IMG/VR virus record: IMGVR_UViG_3300037493_004315
Coordinates: 1 to 23,621 of that record
Strand: one strand, 5' to 3'
Length of the DNA: 23,621 nt
Source of the DNA: a virus
The position numbers were made by a program, and so were the translations under genes. Shown here piece after piece: positions 2,042 through 22,107 of the stretch (positions are counted from its first letter, which is position 1; every line of letters begins with the position of its first letter). A model generated the notes under the pieces. That model did not search any database and had not been told where the DNA came from. It was given only the letters and a program-made list of their open reading frames with translations.

Positions 2042-2074
2042 CAAAATATAGGTAAAATAACCCCAATTGTCAAA
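2042..2074 (-). promoter_or_regulatory. Weak host-type promoter for the 143-aa gene
   Basis: On the minus strand TTTG (2074-2071) is followed 20 nt later by TATATTTTG (2050-2042). This resembles the Bacteroidota TTTG/TAnnTTTG promoter but has one extra T in the -7 box. It overlaps the divergent bS21 promoter region. Confidence 0.3.
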
Positions 2075-2099
2075 AACTTTAAAAAAATTGATATATTTG
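2067..2099 (+). promoter_or_regulatory. Bacteroidota-type promoter of the bS21 gene
   Basis: A perfect -7 box TATATTTG lies at 2092-2099, with TTG at 2067-2069 (22-nt spacer, inside the 17-23 range described for flavobacteria). The bS21 ATG at 2106 begins only 6 nt after the box, so transcription probably starts at or next to the start codon. Confidence 0.55.
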
Positions 2100-2105
2100 T
2101 ATTAT

Positions 2106-2294
2106 ATGATAAAAATAGATGTAAAAAAAAATGGGATAGAAAAGTCCCTAAAGATGTTAAAGTCAAAGGTGATTAAAACTAAACAAAATCAAATATTGTT
2201 TGGTAAAAAAGAATTTGTTAAAAAATCAATAAGGTTAAGACAACAAAAATTAAAATCTTGTTATATTCAAAAAATAAAATCTAAATTAGATTGA
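2106..2294 (+). CDS. rpsU: Ribosomal protein bS21 (phage-encoded)
   Basis: This 62-residue, strongly basic protein would bind the 30S platform near the 16S rRNA 3' end. The layout matches bacterial S21: a short beta strand (MIKIDVKKNG), then IEKSLKMLKSKVIKTK matching the family's 'ieraLkrfKrk.eKtG', then KKEFVKKSIRLRQQK matching 'RR.fekPS..RrkK', and a helix SCYIQKIKSK. The length equals that of Bacteroidota S21. The ATG at 2106 is chosen because the family starts here and because an upstream in-frame ATG at 2067 lies inside the promoter. bS21 is known in other phages and virus contigs. In Flavobacterium, bS21 is known to help sequester the anti-Shine-Dalgarno sequence, so a phage copy could alter which mRNAs start translation. 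It overlaps the end of the opposing 233-aa gene by 9 nt. Confidence 0.87.
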   Translation: MIKIDVKKNGIEKSLKMLKSKVIKTKQNQILFGKKEFVKKSIRLRQQKLKSCYIQKIKSKLD

Positions 2295-10435: not shown

Positions 10436-11815
10436 TTAGTTATTTAATCCACCAAATCCTCCAATGCGAATAGAATTTAATTGTTGGACAGCTTTTCCTT
10501 CGTTATTTATGTATACTGGATGAGGGGCTACTCCATCTGCGGGTCCACCCTCGCTAATTGAGCCACCACTAAAGTTACCTAATATTTCAATAGTGTATGC
10601 GTATTGTTGGTCAGCCGATAATCCTGTAAATCCTGGTGTATTACTTGGTGTTGGTGTTGCTCCTGGTGTACCTGTTTGTGTTGGTGTTTTTGTTACAGTT
10701 GGAGTATTTGTTACGGTTGGAGTATTTGTTGGTGTTTTAGTTGGTGTTACTGTATTAGTTGGTGTTACTGTTGGTGTTACAGTATTAGTTGGTGTATTTG
10801 TTGGAGTTGTAGTATTTGTTGGTGTATTGGTTGGTGTTTTAGTCGGTGTTGTAGTATTTGTTGGTGTTTGAGTTTGAGTAGGTGTCTGAGTATTTGTCTG
10901 AGTATTTGTTTGTGTATTAGTAGGTGTCTGAGTATTTGTTTGTGTTGGTGTTTGAGTTTGAGTGTTTGTTTGTGTTGGTGTTTGAGTTTGAGTCGGTGTT
11001 TTGGTTGTAGTTACTGATGGTGTTGGTGTATTACTTGCGGTATTTGTTGGAGTTACGGTAGGTGTTGGCGTTGGTAATGGACATGAACCTAGTGAAACAA
11101 AAGTACCACTACCTTGAATTATAATAACTTCTGTTGCACATTTTATAAGTGTTTGATATGGTTGTAACGTAAATTGAAAAGTAAATCCATCACAATCTCT
11201 ACCCACAAATGCTGTACCAGTTGTTCCACCATCTAACTCATATGTTTTACACACATTAGGTGTATTACTTGGAGTTACTGATATAGTTGGTGTATTAGTT
11301 GGAGTACTAGTTTGAGTTGCGGTATTAGTTGGAGTTTTAGTTACTGTTGGTGTTTGTGTTTTTGTTACTGTTGGTGTATTGGTTTGAGTACTAGTTACTG
11401 TTGGTGTATTGGTTTGAGTACTAGTTACTGTTGGTGTATTAGTTTGAGTGCTAGTTACTGTTGGTGTTGTAGTATTTGTTGGTGTATTAGTTGGAGTTTT
11501 AGTTACTGTTGGTGTATTAGTTGGAGTACTTGTTACTGTTGGTGTATTAGTTTGAGTACTTGTTACTGTTGGTGTAGGTGTTACAACCGCCTGACAAGTA
11601 ATACAATCAACATAATCTATTGACATGTATAATACTGCGTCAATAGCTGTTGCAGGTTCCACATTGTCAATAATATCATAACATCCTGGAGTTGTTCCAC
11701 CAGTAAATGTTAAATAATAATTACCATTTACTGCCGGTAATGATGAACTATCAAAATCGACTAATATTGATGCTCCTCCAGAACAAGGACCTATAAGATA
11801 TGTAATTAACGCCAT
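10436..11815 (-). CDS. Thr/Pro-repeat virion-type protein (possible fibre or decoration)
   Basis: This 459-residue protein has three globular blocks joined by two mucin-like linkers. Residues 1-75 are Cys-containing and beta-rich (CSGGASILVDFDSS; VDCITCQ). About residues 76-185 are repeats such as TPTVTSTQTN. About residues 186-250 form a middle beta domain with several Cys (NVCKTYELDGGTTG, SLGSCPLP). About residues 250-393 are a second repeat tract (TPTNTPTNTTTPT). The C-terminal domain (FTGLSADQQYAYTIEILGNF) is Gly-rich. There is no signal peptide. The extended Thr/Pro linkers suit a surface-exposed virion protein such as a fibre or head decoration, but the role is inferred. It is the first gene of the minus-strand virion operon, with an octamer 12 nt upstream. 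Confidence 0.75.
   Translation of the reverse strand: MALITYLIGPCSGGASILVDFDSSSLPAVNGNYYLTFTGGTTPGCYDIIDNVEPATAIDAVLYMSIDYVDCITCQAVVTPTPTVTSTQTNTPTVTSTPTNTPTVTKTPTNTPTNTTTPTVTSTQTNTPTVTSTQTNTPTVTSTQTNTPTVTKTQTPTVTKTPTNTATQTSTPTNTPTISVTPSNTPNVCKTYELDGGTTGTAFVGRDCDGFTFQFTLQPYQTLIKCATEVIIIQGSGTFVSLGSCPLPTPTPTVTPTNTASNTPTPSVTTTKTPTQTQTPTQTNTQTQTPTQTNTQTPTNTQTNTQTNTQTPTQTQTPTNTTTPTKTPTNTPTNTTTPTNTPTNTVTPTVTPTNTVTPTKTPTNTPTVTNTPTVTKTPTQTGTPGATPTPSNTPGFTGLSADQQYAYTIEILGNFSGGSISEGGPADGVAPHPVYINNEGKAVQQLNSIRIGGFGGLNN
10640..11062. repeat. Low-complexity tandem repeat coding for TPT/TNT/TQT units (block 1)
   Basis: This is a degenerate 6-to-18-nt repeat of ggtgtttgagtt/ggtgtattagtt type (plus strand) encoding Thr-Pro, Asn-Thr and Gln-Thr units. 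It is in frame with the minus-strand 459-residue protein. Open frames on the plus strand across it are artefacts of the repeat. Confidence 0.85.
11265..11585. repeat. Low-complexity tandem repeat coding for TPT/TVT units (block 2)
   Basis: This is a second block of the same kind, including near-identical repeats of agttactgttggtgtatt (plus strand). It encodes the N-terminal Thr/Pro linker of the 459-residue protein. Confidence 0.85.
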
Positions 11816-13313: not shown

Positions 13314-13718
13314 TTAGGATTTTAATTTTCTTAATTGGTCTCTAATCTCGATGGACTTTTCAAAGTTTTGTTCTTTGATTGATTCCTTTAATTCCAATTC
13401 AAGATTTTCAATCATCTCTTTATTGGTTCCCAAGTTTTTAATTTGGTCTCTCAACTTAACCGCTTCTTCAAAATCTTCCATTTCAATCGCTCTTTCAAGT
13501 TTAATGTTAAGGTATTCTTCCTTACTCATTTCTTTTGGATTATCATTATCTAAATCCGATAAATCAAATACTTTTACATAACGGGTATATTTGTAATCCC
13601 CATCAGGAGATTCAAAAGTATTGGTCGTCCAATCTTGTTTATTGAACTCTTCCATGATTTTGTCGTAACGAGCCATTAGGTCGTCAATGTTAAAATTAAA
13701 TTTTCTTCTGTGAAACAT
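13314..13718 (-). CDS. UVR-motif protein, McsA-like candidate ClpC partner
   Basis: This 134-residue protein has two UVR motifs: about residues 72-95 (LERAIEMEDFEEAVKLRDQI) and 106-131 (KESIKEQNFEKSIEIRDQL), each with the family's 'A...E.FE.A..LRDqI' spacing. UVR motifs occur in UvrB/UvrC, in the middle domain of ClpC and in McsA, the ClpC activator of Firmicutes. The N-terminal part (MFHRRKFNFNIDDLMARYDK) lacks the Cys zinc fingers of McsA. It stands divergent from a ClpC-type gene that also carries a UVR-like segment, so it may be an adaptor or activator of that unfoldase. That partnership is an inference from adjacency and the shared motif. No octamer or clear host promoter was found upstream. 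Confidence 0.8.
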   Translation of the reverse strand: MFHRRKFNFNIDDLMARYDKIMEEFNKQDWTTNTFESPDGDYKYTRYVKVFDLSDLDNDNPKEMSKEEYLNIKLERAIEMEDFEEAVKLRDQIKNLGTNKEMIENLELELKESIKEQNFEKSIEIRDQLRKLKS

Positions 13719-13723
13719 ATTTT

Positions 13724-13754
13724 TTTGTTTTTTTAAATTTATTTATTATCTTTG
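13724..13754 (+). promoter_or_regulatory. Bacteroidota-type promoter of the clp gene
   Basis: TTTG at 13724-13727 is followed after exactly 19 nt by TATCTTTG at 13747-13754, a perfect match to the TTTG-N19-TAnnTTTG consensus. Transcription would start near 13761 and leave an unusually long leader of about 145 nt before the ATG at 13907. Confidence 0.75.
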
Positions 13755-13765
13755 TTCTTGTCAAG

Positions 13766-13781
13766 TATCATACCGATGATA
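13766..13781. promoter_or_regulatory. Inverted repeat near the clp transcription start
   Basis: TATCAT and ATGATA form a perfect 6-bp inverted repeat around a 4-nt centre (ACCG), just downstream of the predicted transcription start. It could be a repressor site or a small mRNA hairpin. Confidence 0.35.
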
Positions 13782-13809
13782 AATATAAGATATTATTTTA
13801 TATAATCCA

Positions 13810-13852
13810 TGACATTATGTCAGGTTAATAAAATTATTATGACAATTTGTCA
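13810..13852. promoter_or_regulatory. Two perfect 13-bp palindromes, candidate operators
   Basis: TGACATTATGTCA (13810-13822) and TGACAATTTGTCA (13840-13852) are each perfect 6+1+6 palindromes sharing the arms TGACA/TGTCA. Their centres are exactly 30 bp apart, close to three helical turns, as expected for two dimers binding the same DNA face. A third imperfect site (TGACAGTAATTTGTA) starts near 13877. They lie in the clp leader. Confidence 0.5.
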
Positions 13853-13906
13853 AAATATTTGGATATGTATGAAATTTGACAGTAATTTGTAAAACAATTA
13901 AAAAAT

Positions 13907-15922
13907 ATGAACGACTTAATGGACGACGACGACAAAATGATGAACAAAAAAACTAAATCATCTGGAGAATCTAACACACCTGTGTTAGATAATTTTAGTA
14001 GAGACTTAATGAAACTAGCGGAAGCTGGAAAACTTGACCCCGTTATTGGTCGTGATAGAGAAATCTTAAGGATTGCTCAAATTCTTTCTCGTAGAAAGAA
14101 AAATAACCCAATTATCCTTGGAGAACCTGGTTGTGGTAAAACCGCACTTGTTGAAGGATTAGCAATCAAGATTGTAAATGGTGATTGTCCCCGTAACTTG
14201 GTAGATAAACGTATTGTTAATCTTGACCTTACATCAGTTGTTGCCGGTACAAAGTATCGTGGACAATTTGAAGAAAGAATGAAAGTGATTATCGAAGAAC
14301 TTCAATCAAACCCAAATATCATTGTATTCATTGATGAGATTCACACATTGGTTGGTTCAGGAAATTCTTCAGGTTCAATGGATGGTTCAAATATCTTTAA
14401 ACCCGCATTGGCACGTGGGGAAGTTCAATGTATCGGAGCAACCACATTAGATGAGTTCCGTAAAAACATTGAAAAAGATGGAGCATTGGAACGTAGATTC
14501 CAAAAGGTAATCGTTGAACCATCATCAATTGATGAAACAATCCAAATCCTTAAGAATGTTCGTGACAAATACGAAGATTTCCACAAGGTGAATTACAGCG
14601 ATGAGGTAATTGAGACTTGTGTTAAGTTGGCAGACCGTTATATTACAGACCGTGAGTTCCCTGATAAAGCGTTTGACATATTGGATGAGGTTGGAGCAAG
14701 AATGCAGACCGAGTTGAAGATACCTGAAGCAATTGAAGATTTAAAAAGACAAGCGGCAGAAATTAAAATTCAAAAAATGGAAGTGGTTAAAAAACAAAAC
14801 TACGAACAAGCTGCAGAGCTTCGTGACAAAGAAAAAAAATTGTTACTGAAGTTGGACCAAGAGAAAATTAAGTTTGATGAAAAGTTGTCCAAAGAAAAAC
14901 AACTCATCTTATTGGAACATGTTTATGATGTTGTATCAAACATGACAAAAATCCCTGTAAATAAAATGAGTGTGGATGATACCAAAGCTTTGTTGGACTT
15001 GGACAAAACTTTGATTGACAAAGTTATCGGTCAAAACAATGCGGTAGTTAAGATTGCAAAAGCAATCAAAAGAAATCGTTTGGGTATCAAAGACCCTAAT
15101 CGTCCAATTGGGTCATTTGTGTTTTTAGGTTCGACAGGTGTTGGTAAGACATACCTGGCAAAACAATTGGCAAAAGAAATGTTCGGTTCCGAAGATGCTC
15201 TCATTCGTGTCGACATGTCTGAATACCAAGAGAAACACACAATATCCAAATTAATTGGAGCACCTCCAGGATACGTAGGTTATGAAGAAGGCGGATTGTT
15301 AACTGAGAAAGTTAAAAACAAACCTTACTCTGTAATCTTATTTGATGAGATTGAAAAAGCTCACAAAGATGTATTCACCATCCTACTTCAGGTTTTAGAT
15401 GATGGTCACGTTACCGACAGTTTGGGACGTAAGATTAACTTCAAGAATACCTTGATTATCTTGACATCAAACTTGGGGGTTAAAAAACTACAAGACTTTG
15501 GAGCTGGTATTGGTTTCTCAAGTAATTCATATAGTAATGAAGAGGCTAAGAAACAACTGTTAATGAAGGAAATGAAAAACTTCTTCTCACCTGAGTTTAT
15601 TAATCGTATTGATGATACGGTTGTATTTAACTCGTTGACTAAAGAAGACATCAAAAAGATTACAGACATTGAATTGAAGAAGTTGGTGACTCGTCTTGTA
15701 GATATGAAGTACAAAATCACATATGATGAATCTTTGGTTGAATACTTATCAAAGATTGGATACGATGAATTGTACGGAGCTCGTCCATTGAAGAGAGCTA
15801 TTCAGGATAAGGTTGAAGACCTATTGTCAGAAGAAGTTCTAACGGGTAAAATGATTGAAGGTAAGACCTATCACATCAAAGTAGTGGGGGAAAACGTGGT
15901 GGTCCAAAAAAAAGGACGATAA
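13907..15922 (+). CDS. ClpC-type AAA+ unfoldase lacking the N-domain
   Basis: This 671-residue protein is a two-ring-domain Hsp100 ATPase that would unfold proteins and feed them to ClpP. Domain 1 has Walker A GEPGCGKT (72-79), the pore-loop region KYRGQFEER, Walker B FIDEIH (Asp143, Glu144) and an ERRF arginine finger. A short middle region (about 285-330) contains a UVR-like segment (KKQNYEQAAELRDKEKKL), as in ClpC. Domain 2 has Walker A GSTGVGKT (408-415), pore loop GYVGYEEGG, Walker B ILFDEIEKAH (Asp480, Glu481), a ClpP-docking loop AGIGFSS (about 533-539) and sensor-2 GARPLKR. ClpC normally has about 810-850 residues; the roughly 150-residue N-domain that binds adaptors is missing and replaced by about 25 polar residues. 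No clpP is in the window, so host ClpP is the likely partner. The gene is visibly less AT-rich than its neighbours. Confidence 0.93.
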   Translation: MNDLMDDDDKMMNKKTKSSGESNTPVLDNFSRDLMKLAEAGKLDPVIGRDREILRIAQILSRRKKNNPIILGEPGCGKTALVEGLAIKIVNGDCPRNLVDKRIVNLDLTSVVAGTKYRGQFEERMKVIIEELQSNPNIIVFIDEIHTLVGSGNSSGSMDGSNIFKPALARGEVQCIGATTLDEFRKNIEKDGALERRFQKVIVEPSSIDETIQILKNVRDKYEDFHKVNYSDEVIETCVKLADRYITDREFPDKAFDILDEVGARMQTELKIPEAIEDLKRQAAEIKIQKMEVVKKQNYEQAAELRDKEKKLLLKLDQEKIKFDEKLSKEKQLILLEHVYDVVSNMTKIPVNKMSVDDTKALLDLDKTLIDKVIGQNNAVVKIAKAIKRNRLGIKDPNRPIGSFVFLGSTGVGKTYLAKQLAKEMFGSEDALIRVDMSEYQEKHTISKLIGAPPGYVGYEEGGLLTEKVKNKPYSVILFDEIEKAHKDVFTILLQVLDDGHVTDSLGRKINFKNTLIILTSNLGVKKLQDFGAGIGFSSNSYSNEEAKKQLLMKEMKNFFSPEFINRIDDTVVFNSLTKEDIKKITDIELKKLVTRLVDMKYKITYDESLVEYLSKIGYDELYGARPLKRAIQDKVEDLLSEEVLTGKMIEGKTYHIKVVGENVVVQKKGR

Positions 15923-15927
15923 TTAAG

Positions 15928-15957
15928 AAAGGGAGATGAAAATCTCCCTTTTTTTTA
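15928..15957 (+). terminator. Rho-independent terminator after clp
   Basis: GGGAGAT (15931-15937) pairs with ATCTCCC (15942-15948) around a GAAA tetraloop, extended by A-T pairs, and is followed by about eight T. It starts 5 nt after the clp stop codon. Confidence 0.92.
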
Positions 15958-15965
15958 TATTTATA
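15958..15965 (+). promoter_or_regulatory. TATTTATA octamer before the zinc metalloprotein gene
   Basis: The plus strand reads TATTTATA 4 nt before the ATG at 15970 and immediately after the clp terminator, so the next gene needs its own start of transcription here. Confidence 0.5.
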
Positions 15966-15969
15966 TTTG

Positions 15970-16725
15970 ATGAGGGATTTAATCAGAAAGATTATTATAG
16001 AAACTGTAACGGACACAGAGATAATTTGTAATAAATGTGGATGGTCGTGGGATATTGTTGATGGTGGTGATGACTTATATATCTGTCATGAATGTGGTCA
16101 TGATAATGAACCAAAATCACAATCTAATTTAAACAAACTATTAGAAAACTTCAAAGATAATTTTCCTGAAGAATTAAAACCAAAGGTTGATGCAATTGAA
16201 AAGTTTATTGTTAACTACATTCAAGAACACAATTTTACCGTTAAATTTCTTAACTCATGTTCCACAGGTTTTGGTGGTGTTAGAACCAAAGACCAAATCA
16301 TTATTTGTTCGCCAAATGCAATGGCAACTCTTGGTGATTTTATTTACACCGTATTCCACGAAATAAGACATGAAGAACAAATCGTCATGGGATTAGACAA
16401 TCCTTTAACAGATTATGATTTAGAAGATTTTGAAAAATTATCTAAAAAATATTGGGAATTAGAAATGGATGCCGATAAGTTTGCCAAAGAAATGGTCGCA
16501 AAACTTATTATTAAACTTAGAGTACCAATTGATGTTGCAAAACAAAATTTAGGTTTGTCAGGATATATTAAAAATTATCCCTTATACTCTAACATGGTTT
16601 CGTCTCAATTAAAAATGATTATAGATAGCATTAAACAAATAAAAAAATCGGGTGAAGAATATACTGATATTCAAGACCACCCGATGATTAAAAAATATTT
16701 AGATAAATTAGAAAACTTTATTTAA
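15970..16725 (+). CDS. Zinc-ribbon plus HExxH metallopeptidase-like protein
   Basis: This 251-residue protein (from ATG 15970; a TTG one codon earlier is also open) has two zinc sites. A ribbon near residues 20-42 uses CNKCGWSW and CHECGH. A zincin-type motif HEIRHEEQ lies near residue 130 and is followed about 30 residues later by ELEMDADKFAKEM, which resembles the third-ligand helix 'E.eAD.FA' of HExxH peptidases such as ImmA/M48-like families. It therefore probably is a Zn-dependent protease, perhaps clearing a specific host or phage protein; the substrate is unknown. The region between (about 50-120) looks helical. It follows clp and overlaps the 3' end of the opposing M20 gene by 4 nt. 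An inactive or structural role cannot be excluded. Confidence 0.75.
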   Translation: MRDLIRKIIIETVTDTEIICNKCGWSWDIVDGGDDLYICHECGHDNEPKSQSNLNKLLENFKDNFPEELKPKVDAIEKFIVNYIQEHNFTVKFLNSCSTGFGGVRTKDQIIICSPNAMATLGDFIYTVFHEIRHEEQIVMGLDNPLTDYDLEDFEKLSKKYWELEMDADKFAKEMVAKLIIKLRVPIDVAKQNLGLSGYIKNYPLYSNMVSSQLKMIIDSIKQIKKSGEEYTDIQDHPMIKKYLDKLENFI

Positions 16726-17561
16726 AAGACTGACCTATTTCTCCAACCATGTTCAACCATTTCTTTATAGTGTAATTTATGACCAAGTTTATCAATCATT
16801 TTCTTACCCATGTCGATACCGTTAATTACGTCTTCAACAACGACGTATTCATGGGTTGTGTGATATTGGTAGTATCCAATTGAGAAGTTAATACAAGAGA
16901 AGTCAAACTTACCTCTTAACGCATATACATCAGTATAAGGGTGAACCATGTATCTCATTCTATCTCCCATACCTTCTGTTAATACATCATTACAAGCATC
17001 AAAAAATTCCGTCTCTCTGTCAAATAAAACTTGACCAAAACATTTTTCAGTAATCATCCAGTTTTCAGGTGCGTCAAATTGAATACCATATCCAACATTA
17101 TCAAAAAATGATGAATCCGCCATCATTGAACCTTTACAACCTGTTTCTTCAGATACAAAAAACGCGGCTTTTACATACGGTAATTCTTTCAATAATCTAA
17201 GACATGCAAATACGCCACATTTATCATCACCACCAATACCTGTTGGTTCTCCATCATTGTCATATGCCTTATATGATAATTTAATTTCTTTTTGAGCATT
17301 TGGTAACATTTCCTCTCGAATATTAATATCGTTAAGTCCATGTACCGTATCCGTATGTGAAATTACACATGGGAAATAAAATCCTTCAGGAAGTTCTTTG
17401 GATTCTTGTTTTGTTGCGTAGACGTTATTATATTCGTCCACATAGTGTTCAATATTATTTTCAGTTAACCAGTTAACCAAAAACTCAACCATTCTGTCCT
17501 CGCGATACGTTGCCGTAGGTACGCTCAAAACGGCTTTAAGTAATTCTAAATTTTGTTCCAT
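16722..17561 (-). CDS. M20-family metallopeptidase (peptidase T-like)
   Basis: This 279-residue protein keeps the di-zinc set of the M20 family: SHTDTVHG (His69, Asp71), GIGGDDKCG (Asp112 or Asp113 bridging), SEETGCKGS (Glu138 catalytic, Glu139 ligand), QFDAP (Asp163) and YHTTHEYV (His234 or His237). Known members remove amino acids from short peptides or di/tripeptides. It is short: M20 enzymes with a dimerisation/lid domain have about 370-410 residues, and here the segment between Asp163 and the last His is only about 70 residues, so the lid is reduced or missing. This recalls the lid-less exopeptidase layout, but substrate choice cannot be read. A host-type promoter lies directly before the ATG. 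In the context of ClpC and tmRNA it could recycle the peptides made by Clp. Confidence 0.85.
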   Translation of the reverse strand: MEQNLELLKAVLSVPTATYREDRMVEFLVNWLTENNIEHYVDEYNNVYATKQESKELPEGFYFPCVISHTDTVHGLNDINIREEMLPNAQKEIKLSYKAYDNDGEPTGIGGDDKCGVFACLRLLKELPYVKAAFFVSEETGCKGSMMADSSFFDNVGYGIQFDAPENWMITEKCFGQVLFDRETEFFDACNDVLTEGMGDRMRYMVHPYTDVYALRGKFDFSCINFSIGYYQYHTTHEYVVVEDVINGIDMGKKMIDKLGHKLHYKEMVEHGWRNRSVF

Positions 17562-17565
17562 AGAG

Positions 17566-17596
17566 CAAATATAGAAAATTATTTACACTTCACCAA
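17566..17596 (-). promoter_or_regulatory. Bacteroidota-type promoter of the M20 peptidase gene
   Basis: On the minus strand TTTG (17597-17594 region) is followed after 20 nt by a perfect TATATTTG (17573-17566). Only 4 nt separate the box from the ATG at 17561, so the mRNA is probably leaderless. The -35 part lies inside the end of the neighbouring 600-residue gene. Confidence 0.6.
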
Positions 17597-19385
17597 ATTT
17601 AAATAACTCTGGTTGATATAATAAATGATTAAATTGTTCTTCATTAAGTTTACGGGTAATAAATCCTGTAGGTAGTTGTAATTCAACAACAATTTGCATA
17701 TCGTCTCTATCAAAAGTTTTAACTTTGAAATTTATTGATTCATCTTTTGGTAATTTATACCATTTACCTATCTCGTATCTAGATAATATTTTTTGTCTAA
17801 GTTCCAAAAATTTTACTATTGGGGTTCCATCTTCTTCAATCTTTTCTAAGATACTATCAAATTGTCTTCCAACCTCTCTGTTGAATGACTCGGTATCAAA
17901 ATTATCAGAATCTTGATATTCATATGTGTCGTCATACCAACCACCCATACTACCACCACTTTGTTCAACAATCTGATTAAATAATGAAATAACATCAGTT
18001 TTATTGATTTCAAGTCTTGTTGACCACATTAATAAATTTGCCGGTGTTGTTGTAATCTCATCATATCTTCTTTTAAGGGCAAATCCTGTAGATTCTAAAA
18101 CGTCATTAATTTCTTTTGTGATAGATTCTGTGGCAGTAATGCTCATTTCTCTATTTTTTTCTACAAAATAATCATTTATGATATTATCGGTTTCTGTTTC
18201 AAATAAATCTAATAATACCGCAGCTAACTCTTGTTGATATGCATTTAACAAACTAAATGATTTTGATGGCAATAAAACGTCTGAGATTTGTTTTATTTTT
18301 TCTGTGTTCTCATCATTTAAGTCAGCAAATATAAGATACCCTTCTTTAAAATCGTCATAAATAGTATATTCATCCATAAATTCATAATCACTATAACTTG
18401 AAGATACCGCATTCATAAACCACACGTCATCGTCACTTACATCAAAATTTTCAAAAAAATTCTTATCGTCACCAAAATCAATAACAATTTTACTTTGTCC
18501 CAATGGGTCCTTAATTATAACATCAATAATCGATGGGTCAGAATCTATTAATTCTTCAACAGTTGCAAGCCCCCTTGTAAATTCTCTTAATTTTTTAATG
18601 AATTCACCAACACCCGTTAAATCGTCAATAAGGTCACTTTGATTTGGAAAATATTCTTTAAGGTATTCAATAGTTTTTGCGAAATCTTGAGCATCAAATA
18701 CTTCAATTTTTTTTTCACTTTCATTTTGATATAAAGCAATTTTATTGTTAGTTTTTTTATTTAAAAAATAATATAAATTACCAGTTCTTGTATATTTGTC
18801 AAAATACGATGTTGACCCTTTTTGAGTTGTACACCATTTGGTGTTGGTACCATAATAACAAGACGCTGAATGTGATTTTGGTCTAACCACCAACACTTCA
18901 TCATCTTCATAAATTTTATCAACTTGAGATTTAATCTCCAGTTCAATTTGTTTTTGAGTTTTTCTACTATCAATAATGGACATTAATTTCTTAATGAATT
19001 GAGGATTTTCATATTGATTAATATCCTTTGGTGAACGAGCAATCCCCTCAATATTTGGCACTACATAACTATTATTTGTGTCGGCAATAAATTCAGTTTC
19101 CGCTTTCCAAATATCATCTTCAGTTATTCTATTAACATTTACATGGAACCAAGGAATTATTATTCCAAATAAATCTTGTAGTGATTCTGACTGCCGAACA
19201 TTTAATCCACCTTTTTCACCTGATAATTCAGGAATAATTTTTTCAAGTTTTTTTGCAATATACTCAACATATTTGTAGTTTGTTGGGTCAACACTTAATA
19301 TCCTGTCAATGAATGGGCCATCATACTCAAACCGTTGTTTAAGTTGTTTTGCAACATCTTCCTTTTTACCTTCAATTATAATCAC
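17583..19385 (-). CDS. Phage protein with CxYGxxTxWCTT motif (paralogue A)
   Basis: This 600-residue protein of unknown function has an N-terminus IIIEGKKEDVAKQLKQRF followed by DPTNYKYVEYI, a layout shared with its paralogue across the tmRNA gene. Its clearest signature is around residues 158-190: YEDDEVLVVRPKSHSASC followed by YYGTNTKWCTT (Cys176, Trp184, Cys185), then YFDKYTRTGNLYYFLNKK. The rest (about 220-600) is rich in acidic residues, with beta-like segments near the C-terminus (MQIVVELQLPTGFITRKL). The start is most likely GTG at 19385, because it matches the paralogue's LIVEGRKED region. Proteins with this WCTT signature are, to my memory, found in many large phages but without assigned function. 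The invariant Cys/Trp/Cys suggest an enzymatic or redox site, which is unproven. Confidence 0.8.
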   Translation of the reverse strand: MIIIEGKKEDVAKQLKQRFEYDGPFIDRILSVDPTNYKYVEYIAKKLEKIIPELSGEKGGLNVRQSESLQDLFGIIIPWFHVNVNRITEDDIWKAETEFIADTNNSYVVPNIEGIARSPKDINQYENPQFIKKLMSIIDSRKTQKQIELEIKSQVDKIYEDDEVLVVRPKSHSASCYYGTNTKWCTTQKGSTSYFDKYTRTGNLYYFLNKKTNNKIALYQNESEKKIEVFDAQDFAKTIEYLKEYFPNQSDLIDDLTGVGEFIKKLREFTRGLATVEELIDSDPSIIDVIIKDPLGQSKIVIDFGDDKNFFENFDVSDDDVWFMNAVSSSYSDYEFMDEYTIYDDFKEGYLIFADLNDENTEKIKQISDVLLPSKSFSLLNAYQQELAAVLLDLFETETDNIINDYFVEKNREMSITATESITKEINDVLESTGFALKRRYDEITTTPANLLMWSTRLEINKTDVISLFNQIVEQSGGSMGGWYDDTYEYQDSDNFDTESFNREVGRQFDSILEKIEEDGTPIVKFLELRQKILSRYEIGKWYKLPKDESINFKVKTFDRDDMQIVVELQLPTGFITRKLNEEQFNHLLYQPELFKFGEV

Positions 19386-19398
19386 AGGATATTTTTAC

Positions 19399-19406
19399 AA
19401 TAAATA
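19399..19406 (-). promoter_or_regulatory. TATTTATT octamer before paralogue A
   Basis: The minus strand reads TATTTATT 13 nt upstream of the GTG at 19385. It lies back to back with the tmRNA promoter. Confidence 0.45.
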
Positions 19407-19415
19407 CCAATTTTG

Positions 19416-19446
19416 TTTGTAATATTTATTTTTTGTCCTATCTTTG
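19416..19446 (+). promoter_or_regulatory. Bacteroidota-type promoter of the tmRNA gene
   Basis: TTTG at 19416-19419 is followed after exactly 19 nt by TATCTTTG at 19439-19446, a perfect consensus. Transcription would start near 19453, leaving a leader of about 25 nt to be removed by RNase P before the mature 5' end at 19478. Confidence 0.8.
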
Positions 19447-19477
19447 TATTTATAATATTACAAGTTATTTGACATAT

Positions 19478-19896
19478 GGGGGTGTTTTTGGATTTGACAG
19501 GTATTGGCTGAAGACAAAGGGCACGTGGAGACTGAATTAATCTCCTTAAAAACTGATTCACAAAAACAATCGGCGACGTTTTATCGAAAATGGAAACTCT
19601 TGGTTTACTAAGAGGTTCTGAAGTTACTGTATCCTAAGAGGTTTACGGAAACGGGGGGTCGGTCAGACAGATAACCTAGCAACAGAAGTCGTTGATGAGT
19701 TGGTTTTCACTCTAAAAGAAAACAACGGTCTCGTTCAGAGGACTACCGTAATAAAAGTGAACTCGACACAGTTATTGGTAACGATGTTAAAATAGGAACC
19801 AAATATTTCGGAAGGTATGACAAACCTTGACCTAAACGTGTAGTCCTTATCTGACAGGATATTATGGACGAGGCTTCGATGCCTCCACCTCCACCA
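19478..19896 (+). ncRNA. ssrA: Transfer-messenger RNA (tmRNA), phage-encoded
   Basis: This RNA of about 419 nt rescues stalled ribosomes and tags the nascent protein. The 5' end GGGGGTG (19478-19484) pairs with the 3' CACCTCC (19886-19892) to form the acceptor stem (one G-U), followed by ACCA, so CCA is encoded. The D-arm analogue TTTTTGGATTTGACAGG follows the acceptor as in bacterial tmRNA, and the T-arm is GAGGC-TTCGAT-GCCTC. The best resume codon is GGC at 19572 (preceded by CAAT, like the GGC-GAA context of flavobacterial tmRNA). It gives a tag beginning GDVLSKME and ending SEVTVS before TAA at 19635. An alternative frame from 19573 gives ATFYRKWKLLVY. Neither ends in the usual ALAA. The T-loop has 6 nt rather than 7. 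Host promoter and terminator flank it. Confidence 0.92.
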
Positions 19897-19996: not shown

Positions 19997-21520
19997 ATGA
20001 GATTAACTCCAATCCTTATTGTTGAAGGTCGTAAAGAAGATTTACGTAAAAAATACACTGAAAAATTTAAGGAGTATCCCGAAAATTTAGATTTTATTTT
20101 GGGTATTTCAGATTTAGCAGATACCAACTTCAAATATGCCGATTTTGTGTTAAAGAATACAAATCCAAACGCGTCTTCTCAAGAAGTTGAACATATTGTA
20201 GACCTTGTTAAAGATTTTGATAGATTTCAACCATCATTAGAGATTAAAGATATTAACAAATATGATGTTTATAAATTAGTAACCGCAATTGACAAACATA
20301 GAGAAACTTCAAAAACTCAACAAAAAAAATCAATTGACCCCTCAGACGCCAAAAAATTATATGAAGACGATAACCTATTAATTGTTAAACCTTTAACTTA
20401 CGAATCGTCTTGTAAATATGGTTCAGGTACAAGATGGTGTACTACCAGTACACAATCTCATTTTAAAAATTATACTGAAGATGGCCAATCCTTATATTAC
20501 GTCATTCTTAAGAAATTTGACATAAGTAATAAGTTTTATAAAATTGCAATTCATATGAAACCAAATTTGGAAACATGGTATGACGCGACTGATGAAAGAA
20601 TGTCAGACAGAGAAAAAGAAGTTTTTAATCTTGGAGCTCCAAAAGTAATTCAAACAATTAGAAAAAATTATGAGGAAAGTTTAAATAAAAAATACGATTT
20701 ATTTTTTAAAAATTTGTTTGATTTTAATAATTACAAATTCACTAATGTATCATCATTATTTAAAACAACACACAAAATAGGGATTGAATTTCAAAAACCA
20801 GAACTTATTTCGGATATGCCAAATCATGCAACAATTGAGTTAAATATTTCAGTTGATGAGGATAATATCGACCAATATTTGGTTATGATTACTTATGATG
20901 TTAGAAAAATGGAAAATATTTACAATGGTAATGATATTCTTTTTACTATTGGGTACTCAGGCGATGATTTTGAAATTAAACCTGAATTTGATTTTGGTCT
21001 TGAAAATGTGACAAACAAAGTTCAAATCTATATACCTAATTTTCATTATTCTGATACCAACATCAACAATACTTTCAATGAAATTTGTTGGAGGATTGAG
21101 TCGCAAGTTATTAATATAATGAAACTAAATGACGAGTTTATGTTAAGTATAACTGATGGAAAAGGAAAAACCGTTTGGGCACCAAACAGAAGTTCTTATG
21201 GTTTTACATTTAAAAGAAATGCCGGATTAATTAAAAAACTTACAGATTATTTGGATTCAGGAAAGGAAGGAACAAAATTAGATTTTTTAGTTGATGTTGG
21301 TTCGTTAGATAAAATGAATATTAATGGTAAACCACAATATTCACATAAAAACAAAAATGATTGGAAAATATCATCAGAATTTAGGGGTCAATTAAGTGGA
21401 TTCTTTAATTCTGCGAAATTAGCCGGAATATTAGATTACGATAAAAAAGGTAATCAATTTATTTTGAAAAAGGGGAAAAACTTTGATAAGTTTAAAGAAG
21501 GACAACTTGAAGCTATTTAA
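19997..21520 (+). CDS. Phage protein with CxYGxxTxWCTT motif (paralogue B)
   Basis: This 507-residue protein is a paralogue of the 600-residue protein on the other side of the tmRNA gene. The N-terminus has LIVEGRKEDLRKKYTEKF, then FILGISDLADTNFKYADF. Around residues 121-160 it shows LYEDDNLLIVKPLTYESSC, YGSGTRWCTT (Cys139, Trp147, Cys148) and a following SLYYVILKK. The spacing between the two Cys is nine residues in both paralogues. The remainder is mixed alpha/beta, with acidic stretches and a basic C-terminus (KKGNQFILKKGKNFDKFKEG). No function is known to me. The pair points in opposite directions around the tmRNA, so they arose by duplication with inversion or by separate acquisition. 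Confidence 0.8.
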   Translation: MRLTPILIVEGRKEDLRKKYTEKFKEYPENLDFILGISDLADTNFKYADFVLKNTNPNASSQEVEHIVDLVKDFDRFQPSLEIKDINKYDVYKLVTAIDKHRETSKTQQKKSIDPSDAKKLYEDDNLLIVKPLTYESSCKYGSGTRWCTTSTQSHFKNYTEDGQSLYYVILKKFDISNKFYKIAIHMKPNLETWYDATDERMSDREKEVFNLGAPKVIQTIRKNYEESLNKKYDLFFKNLFDFNNYKFTNVSSLFKTTHKIGIEFQKPELISDMPNHATIELNISVDEDNIDQYLVMITYDVRKMENIYNGNDILFTIGYSGDDFEIKPEFDFGLENVTNKVQIYIPNFHYSDTNINNTFNEICWRIESQVINIMKLNDEFMLSITDGKGKTVWAPNRSSYGFTFKRNAGLIKKLTDYLDSGKEGTKLDFLVDVGSLDKMNINGKPQYSHKNKNDWKISSEFRGQLSGFFNSAKLAGILDYDKKGNQFILKKGKNFDKFKEGQLEAI

Positions 21521-21891: not shown

Positions 21892-22107
21892 ATGAAAAAA
21901 TTATTTAGAGCAAAACCAAGTAAAATTGCCGGAATATGTAAAGGACTTTCCCGTTATTTTAATATTGACGAATCAGTTATCAGAACAGTATTTGTTGTTC
22001 TAATTTTTTTACCATTTCCAATAATAACAATATATTTATTGATGTGGTTGATAATACCAAAAGAAAATAATGAAAACAATAAAAATATTCCTACAAACTT
22101 TTATTAA
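21892..22107 (+). CDS. PspC-domain membrane protein
   Basis: This 71-residue protein matches the PspC domain: RAKPSKIAGICKGLSRYFNI, then DESVIRTVFVV, and a single transmembrane stretch (about 34-56, LIFLPFPIITIYLLMWLIIP), ending PKENNENN. In bacteria PspC is a membrane partner in the phage-shock stress response, sensing or stabilising the inner membrane. A phage copy could protect the membrane during infection or interfere with host signalling; this is inference. It is short, being only the core domain. It belongs to a small transcription unit with the host-type promoter upstream, and a +1-frame ORF overlaps its end. Confidence 0.85.
   Translation: MKKLFRAKPSKIAGICKGLSRYFNIDESVIRTVFVVLIFLPFPIITIYLLMWLIIPKENNENNKNIPTNFY

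Follow-up and report, generated by a model that had tools for sequence, protein, structure and literature searches.

A ClpC gene, an M20 peptidase gene and a tmRNA gene share a phage locus

We analysed a 23,621-base virus record from IMG/VR (IMGVR_UViG_3300037493_004315, whose full length we call the window), which carries close together the genes for a ClpC-type AAA+ unfoldase, an M20 peptidase and a transfer-messenger RNA (tmRNA). We treat the window as phage DNA because terminase, portal and head protease are present and the record is a virus record; the head protease, portal and large terminase genes form a T4-like head-gene block in its left part. The original prediction had described an island of five elements here: a McsA-like UVR protein, a ClpC without N domain, an HExxH metalloprotease, an M20 peptidase and the tmRNA. 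Pfam, PHROG, Rfam and the HEIRH motif locate all five at the positions proposed, the Pfam support for the HExxH protein being weak, and chance is excluded for the elements by the E-values and by their being conserved across over 100 distinct relatives. What persists across relatives is a smaller core of ClpC, M20 peptidase and tmRNA, together with two features that had gone unmentioned: an unusual conserved tag in the tmRNA, and the C-terminal domain of a neighbouring open reading frame (ORF) that is present in 57 of 58 testable loci.

The ClpC gene (13907..15922, + strand) matches AAA_2 (E 5e-70) and ClpB_D2-small (E 5e-23), and its product contains the ClpP-docking loop GAGIGF. The gene of the M20 peptidase (16722..17561, - strand), a core member of 279 amino acids (aa), matches a PHROG annotated 'peptidase' (E 4e-32) and the Pfam family at E 3e-4, with a Pfam score of 21.1 that lies below the gathering threshold of 24.6. 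Between it and the tmRNA lies the 601-codon ORF (17583..19385, - strand) that contributes the conserved domain. The tmRNA gene (ssrA; 19478..19896, + strand) scores 93.5 bits against RF00023 (cut-off 47, E 1.5e-35) and has an alanine-type acceptor stem with G3.U70 and an encoded CCA.

The tmRNA encodes a long, conserved tag

Using 53 tmRNAs of this group, we found that all seven pairs of the acceptor stem are formed and G3.U70 is kept in every one. Pairs 4-7 vary on both sides, as expected of covariation, and give 13 distinct stems among the 53. ACCA follows the acceptor stem in 30/53, and a strict T-loop pattern is matched in 39/53. Judged by this anatomy, the tmRNA is of the functional type and under structural constraint. 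ARAGORN with default settings did not report the window tmRNA; it detects 9 of these 53 tmRNAs and gives the full tag in 6 of those 9, so that most of these phage tmRNAs escape a standard finder. One genome of the Bacteroidota sample gave a second tmRNA match, of 49.3 bits (G221 C1:772761-773172), possibly from a phage or an integrated element.

The tag frame of the window (19572..19637, + strand) encodes GDVLSKMETLGLLRGSEVTVS and ends with the stop TAA. Across relatives the consensus is about GN(V/T)(L/F)xK(M/L)xx(L/I/V)GL(I/V/L/T)RxEExVVVA. The frame begins at position 90-97 of the tmRNA and specifies 21 residues in 45 cases and 22 in 8; it is open in 53/53, a figure that is partly circular because the frame was chosen by its amino-acid pattern. 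Among 118 loci selected by the first 35 tag bases only, the tag has 21 residues in 105 and 22 in 12; in the remaining locus the contig stops before the tag does. The ratio of nonsynonymous to synonymous polymorphism (pN/pS), computed from 38 distinct 21-codon sequences, is 0.60 in the tag frame versus 0.84 and 1.13 in the other two frames, which contain stops in 36/38 and 37/38 sequences. Column shuffles gave a mean pN/pS of 0.91, and 1 of 200 was as low as 0.60. The glycine and leucine at tag positions 11 and 12 are invariant among the 38 sequences, and codon position 3 is the most variable. By these measures, drawn from sequence variation, the tag is a conserved peptide under coding constraint.

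Degradation tags generally end in alanine. Among 63 distinct phage tags the last residue is alanine in 60, isoleucine in two and serine in one, the last being that of the window, which ends VTVS; the commonest endings are VA (46), AA (5) and TA (3). Apart from the tags themselves, the open frames of the 80 best-scoring ClpC loci contain no protein whose end resembles the tag with E below 1. A weak resemblance to part of the FeoA SH3-like domain, its helix-loop-strand, appeared in 2/7 tags (E 0.07-0.09).

For comparison with the predicted host phylum we took the tmRNAs of the 30 best-scoring of 118 Bacteroidota genomes and that of Algibacter, a set that is not a random draw. ARAGORN returned 30 tags from these 31 tmRNAs; they have 9-10 residues, end in LAA or MAA, and all differ from the phage tag. 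The window tag is thus neither short nor closed by an ending of the LAA/MAA type. The exact DNA pattern of one tag class was not found in any bacterial tmRNA across 84,980 species. Bacterial cousins with other letters may exist, because the exact pattern represents that one class only. A bacterial origin of the tag was considered and rejected: in the genome contigs the exact pattern matched once, in a contig of Algibacter, and the match fell in a sulfatase-like gene and not in a tmRNA.

The tmRNA and the M20 peptidase accompany ClpC without testable exception

Relatives were collected in three scans: with the window ClpC (best 80 of 598 confirmed loci), with a distant ClpC query (best 80 of 333) and with an M20 alignment (best 80 of 541). 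We pooled the scans and merged loci sharing an identical ClpC DNA stretch, which left 172 distinct loci. A locus was testable if its contig extended at least 5.6 kb past ClpC for the tmRNA, at least 1.2 kb past it for the M20 peptidase, or 2 kb upstream for the UVR protein. The tmRNA is present in 104/104 testable distinct ClpC loci (97 by the tag pattern, 7 by an Rfam search of the record) and the M20 peptidase in 154/154. The false-match rate of the tag pattern is 2 in 3.76 Mb; a stricter pattern of the tmRNA context was dropped since it rejected true cases.

The first 80 loci, those of the window-ClpC scan, tell how the missing cases arise. An M20 gene lies in 77; in the other three the contig stops no more than 59 bases beyond the ClpC frame. 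A tmRNA scores above the Rfam cut-off in 52 of these records (27/40 + 25/40) and a tag frame stands in the same place in 4 more; in the remaining 24 the contig ends within 5,552 bases after ClpC. Where 7 kb lie beyond ClpC, the tag pattern occurs in 26/37 loci of the distant-ClpC set and 49/50 of the M20 set. An Rfam search of the 12 loci without the pattern and of the shorter L376 found a tmRNA above cut-off in 12/13 records. The exception, L380, is a short contig whose ClpC DNA is identical to that of L381 and L383, with which it was merged. In L383, tRNA genes lie closer to ClpC than the tmRNA does. Four of the 12 (L364, L365, L366 and L368) have the tag only 1.2 kb away from ClpC, which the range set initially did not include; tag-to-ClpC distances range from 1.2 to 6.6 kb.

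The association also holds in the reverse direction. A scan with the 35 bases that open the tag in one class matched at least 120 viral-contig stretches. Among the 80 matches listed, 37 records were new and at least 40 kb long. All 37 contain a ClpC match, which is partial at the contig end in G107 (47 residues) and G109 (315 residues) and split in two pieces in G098.

Members of the core are not fixed in arrangement. Of 227 loci, counted without deduplication, 153 have the M20 gene opposite to ClpC and 74 have both genes on one strand. With G063 the window shares 85% identity in the tmRNA and 68% in ClpC; with G001 it shares 69% in the tmRNA and 96% in ClpC. The tmRNA alleles have thus been exchanged, still with no testable locus lacking a tmRNA.

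Co-occurrence of the five proposed elements therefore holds in part: it stands for ClpC, M20 peptidase and tmRNA and lapses for the UVR protein, which is optional (101/163 testable loci), and for the HExxH motif (19/80 loci; 6 of the 25 protein matches lack the motif). All five occur jointly in only 11 of the first 80 loci, and with an optional UVR protein and so rare an HExxH motif we rejected a five-gene system as a unit.

ClpC lacks an N domain and keeps the parts for docking on ClpP

That the window ClpC lacks the N domain, as had been proposed, is borne out in two ways: Clp_N is not among its 25 best Pfam families, and in 81/81 ClpCs there is no room for the domain, with at most 49 residues before residue 24. 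The protein aligns through its middle domain to Staphylococcus aureus ClpC (6em8), beginning at 6em8 residue 145, and the middle domain has a Pfam UVR match at E 5e-4 that is slightly below threshold (20.2 bits versus a cut-off of 21.5). By pattern, the Walker A and B motifs of both AAA+ modules, the arginine finger, both pore loops and the (I/V)GF loop are kept in 81/81 ClpCs. The phage ClpC thus has the parts needed for docking on ClpP, and it would be expected to bind it.

We searched the longer records for the two further partners. ClpP is encoded in 16/40 of the first ClpC set and 7/37 of the tag set (23/77), and SmpB in 3/40 and 0/37 (3/77). The two records closest to the window among the best 80 of 598 (ClpC 96% and 95% identical) both encode ClpP, and G010 (309 kb) has ClpC, ClpP, SmpB, M20 peptidase and tmRNA in one record. 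Neither ClpP nor SmpB was found in G095, G108 and G117 (272-304 kb), where those of the host would therefore have to serve. In the stretches read of LR756502 and MT837238, whose ClpC is 57-58% identical, there was no tmRNA above cut-off. A GOLLD RNA (275 bits, L304:6013-6419) lies beside a tRNA near the ClpC relative of LR756502, a 642-kb uncultured phage.

The M20 peptidase, the core neighbour and the accessory proteins

In a profile search with its relatives, the nearest PDB matches of the M20 peptidase were peptidase T (E 7e-8) and Xaa-His dipeptidase. As regards the lid/dimerisation domain, the phage protein has 279 aa versus 373-420 in peptidase T chains. Peptidase T and dipeptidases finish peptide breakdown. 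Residues H69, D71, D112, E138, E139, D163 and H234 are invariant in 34 aligned sequences, and we assign them the metal and catalytic roles from the motifs of the M20 family.

The 601-codon ORF consists of an optional N-terminal region with a C-YG--T-WC motif and a C-terminal core domain (about 17586-18614), which we call the core neighbour. AlphaFold models this domain confidently (predicted local distance difference test, pLDDT, 93). Neither PDB nor BFVD gave a Foldseek match at E <= 0.001, and the best VIA Z was 4.4; such a missing match does not show a new fold. Among many weak matches of its C-terminal part is one to FeoA (Z 3.2, rank 40).

A gene for a 507-aa accessory protein (19997..21520, + strand; 17/80 loci) lies on the other side of the tmRNA. 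It shares with the 601-codon ORF both the C-YG--T-WC motif and an N-terminal xxEG(R/K)KED leader. With their (I/L)xE, these leaders resemble the capsid-targeting leaders that the T4 head protease cuts, a likeness that suggests that the flanking proteins may be packaged and injected.

The UVR protein (13314..13718, - strand), also accessory, has two UVR motifs (Pfam UVR, E 4e-14). In PDB its profile matches McsA in the UVR segment, UvrB, and both ClpC and ClpE in their middle domains. To call it McsA-like is apt for the UVR segment and not for the whole protein, which scores 33.7 bits with the McsA equivalog model versus 210 required. The zinc sites of McsA are cysteines; the phage protein contains no cysteine, so these sites are missing. 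Its AlphaFold model has low confidence (pLDDT 62). The UVR protein might serve as an adaptor for the middle domain of ClpC.

The HExxH protein (15967..16725, + strand), zincin-like and outside the core, has an N-terminal leader, a zinc ribbon and the motif HEIRH. The motif is invariant in 14 aligned sequences, and Pfam gives only sub-threshold matches (DUF6782, 'putative metallopeptidase', E 0.015). The start of the protein, MRDLIRKIIIE-T, resembles a capsid-targeting leader. At other loci the zinc ribbon that follows the leader is fused to different C-terminal parts.

A proposed phage line of trans-translation and proteolysis

Rescue of stalled ribosomes and tagging of their products, with SmpB, are established for tmRNAs. 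We propose that the core forms a phage line of trans-translation and proteolysis, in which a private tag is presumably delivered to the phage ClpC and SmpB and ClpP usually come from the host; we give this proposal an even chance of being right. Sequence and covariation show that the phage has a complete tmRNA gene, the alanine identity pair included. During infection, with host SmpB (phage SmpB in a few relatives), this tmRNA would free ribosomes stuck on broken mRNA and append its tag of 21-22 aa. The conserved peptide, unlike the host-phylum tags compared, may act as a private degron that the N-domain-less ClpC reads either by itself or with the help of the UVR protein or the core neighbour, and rescued products would then pass to a phage-controlled unfoldase instead of the host's own system. 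Through its conserved loop, ClpC would dock on ClpP, its own if encoded and otherwise the host's, and shred the substrate, and the M20 peptidase could trim the peptides for reuse. A chain from tagging through unfolding to trimming had been part of the original prediction, and it is something that we, too, infer.

A bolder version, which we hold tentatively and at somewhat less than an even chance, is that the tag is an orthogonal degradation code: unread by host adaptors and ClpX and read solely by the phage ClpC system, perhaps via the UVR protein or the core neighbour, it would let the phage take the quality control of stalled translation from its host. Since tag and core neighbour both show a weak likeness to FeoA, one may speculate that the tag docks on the FeoA-like domain of the neighbour. 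If the tag is a private degron, this would be a natural orthogonal degradation system, in which a virus seizes the quality control of ribosomes both where products are tagged and where they are shredded.

Several observations weigh against the proposed line. The window's own tag ends in serine (last codon 19632-19634), an ending seen otherwise only in L388 and L430, close kin whose ClpC is 99% identical; since it recurs in these two contigs, it does not stem from an error in a single assembly. No ClpP was found in 54/77 and no SmpB in 74/77 of the longer records, many of which are fragments. The module genes lie on both strands, and in the L381/L383 lineage the tmRNA (tag GNVYNEMAMFGLVADEAIVNA) is about 20 kb from ClpC. 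The window tmRNA being nearer to that of G063 than to that of G001, no fine tuning of the tag to ClpC is seen. Tag distances correlate with ClpC distances at a Spearman coefficient of 0.30, and with those of the nucleotidyltransferase (NTase) gene, KTSC and M20 at 0.25, 0.10 and 0.09. Elsewhere, members of the M20 family are found in the absence of ClpC: among Klebsiella phages, 209 records match M20 and 11 match ClpC. Finally, one related phage group supplies all of the co-occurrence, which could therefore be due to shared ancestry and to a stable setting beside the head genes. To this last objection the two orientations of M20, the varying tag distance and the exchange of tmRNAs, yet without loss, are partial answers.

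Two candidate lines of evidence were set aside. We rejected coevolution of tag and ClpC, the correlations being weak only, and we did not use an association of tag positions 3-5 with the presence of ClpP (p down to 2e-4 in 33 records), which is uncorrected for multiple tests and relatedness.

The same genes could be read in other ways. The tmRNA might serve rescue only, its long tag hiding the product from host proteases or aiding folding or transport, and ClpC would work elsewhere. The length of the tag and its invariant G-L in the middle, rather than a conserved end alone, fit such a role, as do a penultimate residue that one class leaves open to G, K, E, A or T and the departures from terminal alanine (two tags in I, the window's in S); the weak FeoA SH3-like resemblance, too, would suit a tag that binds a folded partner. 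We nonetheless consider rescue alone unlikely, since it leaves an intact ClpP loop (81/81) beside a tmRNA (104/104) unexplained and the terminal alanine is kept in 60/63 tags. Alternatively, the genes may have no joint function: ClpC would act in virion assembly or disaggregation, peptidase and tmRNA would do separate work, and the conserved head genes nearby would hold them together. ClpC does adjoin conserved terL, NTase and KTSC genes, and M20 relatives occur in many other phages; AAA+ chaperones of jumbo phages have been suggested to help virion assembly (PMC7824862). Against this stand the persistence of the module through M20 inversion, tmRNA allele exchange and insertions that place the tag 1.2-6.6 kb from ClpC, and the ClpP loop, which assembly or disaggregation alone would presumably not need. 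An absence of joint function is therefore improbable in our judgement, though it deserves some weight.

A third possibility is a use in defence or counter-defence, with the phage tagging and destroying host proteins, those of defence among them, or recycling host proteins for their amino acids, and with rescue as the entry point when RNases of host or phage cut mRNA. The likeness of M20 to peptidase T and dipeptidases would suit recycling, and amino-acid recycling through a phage tmRNA has been proposed for Melnitz (PMC9004378). Such a role would be a variant of the proposed trans-translation and proteolysis line rather than a separate mechanism; as an explanation in its own right we think it very unlikely.

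Relation to known systems

Bacterial trans-translation, with tmRNA-SmpB and ClpXP/ClpAP, has the tmRNA fold and the alanine acceptor stem in common with the phage system, and the tag frame starts at about the same place (position 90-97 in the phages, 90-103 in Bacteroidota by ARAGORN). The phage differs in a tag of 21-22 aa with a G-L core in place of 9-10 aa ending in LAA/MAA, and in a gene that lies beside its own ClpC. ClpC with the adaptors MecA and McsA offers a second comparison: there, too, the ClpC middle domain is involved, and the phage UVR protein resembles the UVR segment of McsA. An adaptor-like protein of phage SPO1 reportedly acts on host ClpC (PMC6873191). Unlike both of these cases, the phage here brings its own ClpC, without the N domain. 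Mycobacterium tuberculosis ClpC1 unfolds SsrA-tagged protein, and the adaptor ClpS inhibits this via the middle domain, the N domain being unneeded (PMC6274998).

Phage-encoded tmRNAs have long been known, from Melnitz, pelagimyophages, mycobacteriophages, phage G and huge phages, the last also with SmpB (PMC9004378, PMC4131195, PMC7162821); two of these three accounts relied on ARAGORN, and the passages compared describe neither a conserved private tag nor a linkage to Clp. In the accessible portions of the open-licence literature we noticed no account that describes the tag or links a phage tmRNA with ClpC, and in the accounts compared the purpose of phage tmRNAs is only guessed at. A tag that is long, conserved, absent from the bacteria compared and fixed beside ClpC and a peptidase makes that purpose directly testable.

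Phage type and host context

Shared genes, rather than a tree, link the window to the bS21 phages and the moraphages, which the T4-like phage of which it is a fragment resembles. A homologue of ribosomal protein bS21 (2067..2294, + strand), a marker of phage type, lies antisense to the head genes within the terL-portal-protease block; its PF01165 match is slightly sub-threshold (E 2.5e-5, 24.3 bits versus a cut-off of 27). Among 36 longer relatives searched, bS21 was found at E <= 0.001 in 30 and above cut-off in 28. Freshwater bS21 phages, which are predicted to infect Bacteroidetes, likewise have an antisense bS21 in the head-gene block together with Clp genes, read there as a sign of proteostasis control (PMC9723584). 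The layout of the window also comes near the core list of the moraphages, with Bacteroidota predicted as hosts, which includes a ClpA-like gene and a 'putative peptidase' (24 genomes each; PMC12619734). The word 'tmRNA' is absent from the main text of both papers.

Two further proteins of the window lie outside the module. The protein encoded at 10436-11815 (- strand) consists mostly of Thr-Pro repeats (TPTPTVT..., TNTPT...). A PspC-domain protein (21892-22107, + strand; Pfam E 4.5e-19) lies 3' of the module and is found by tblastn in 7/80 loci.

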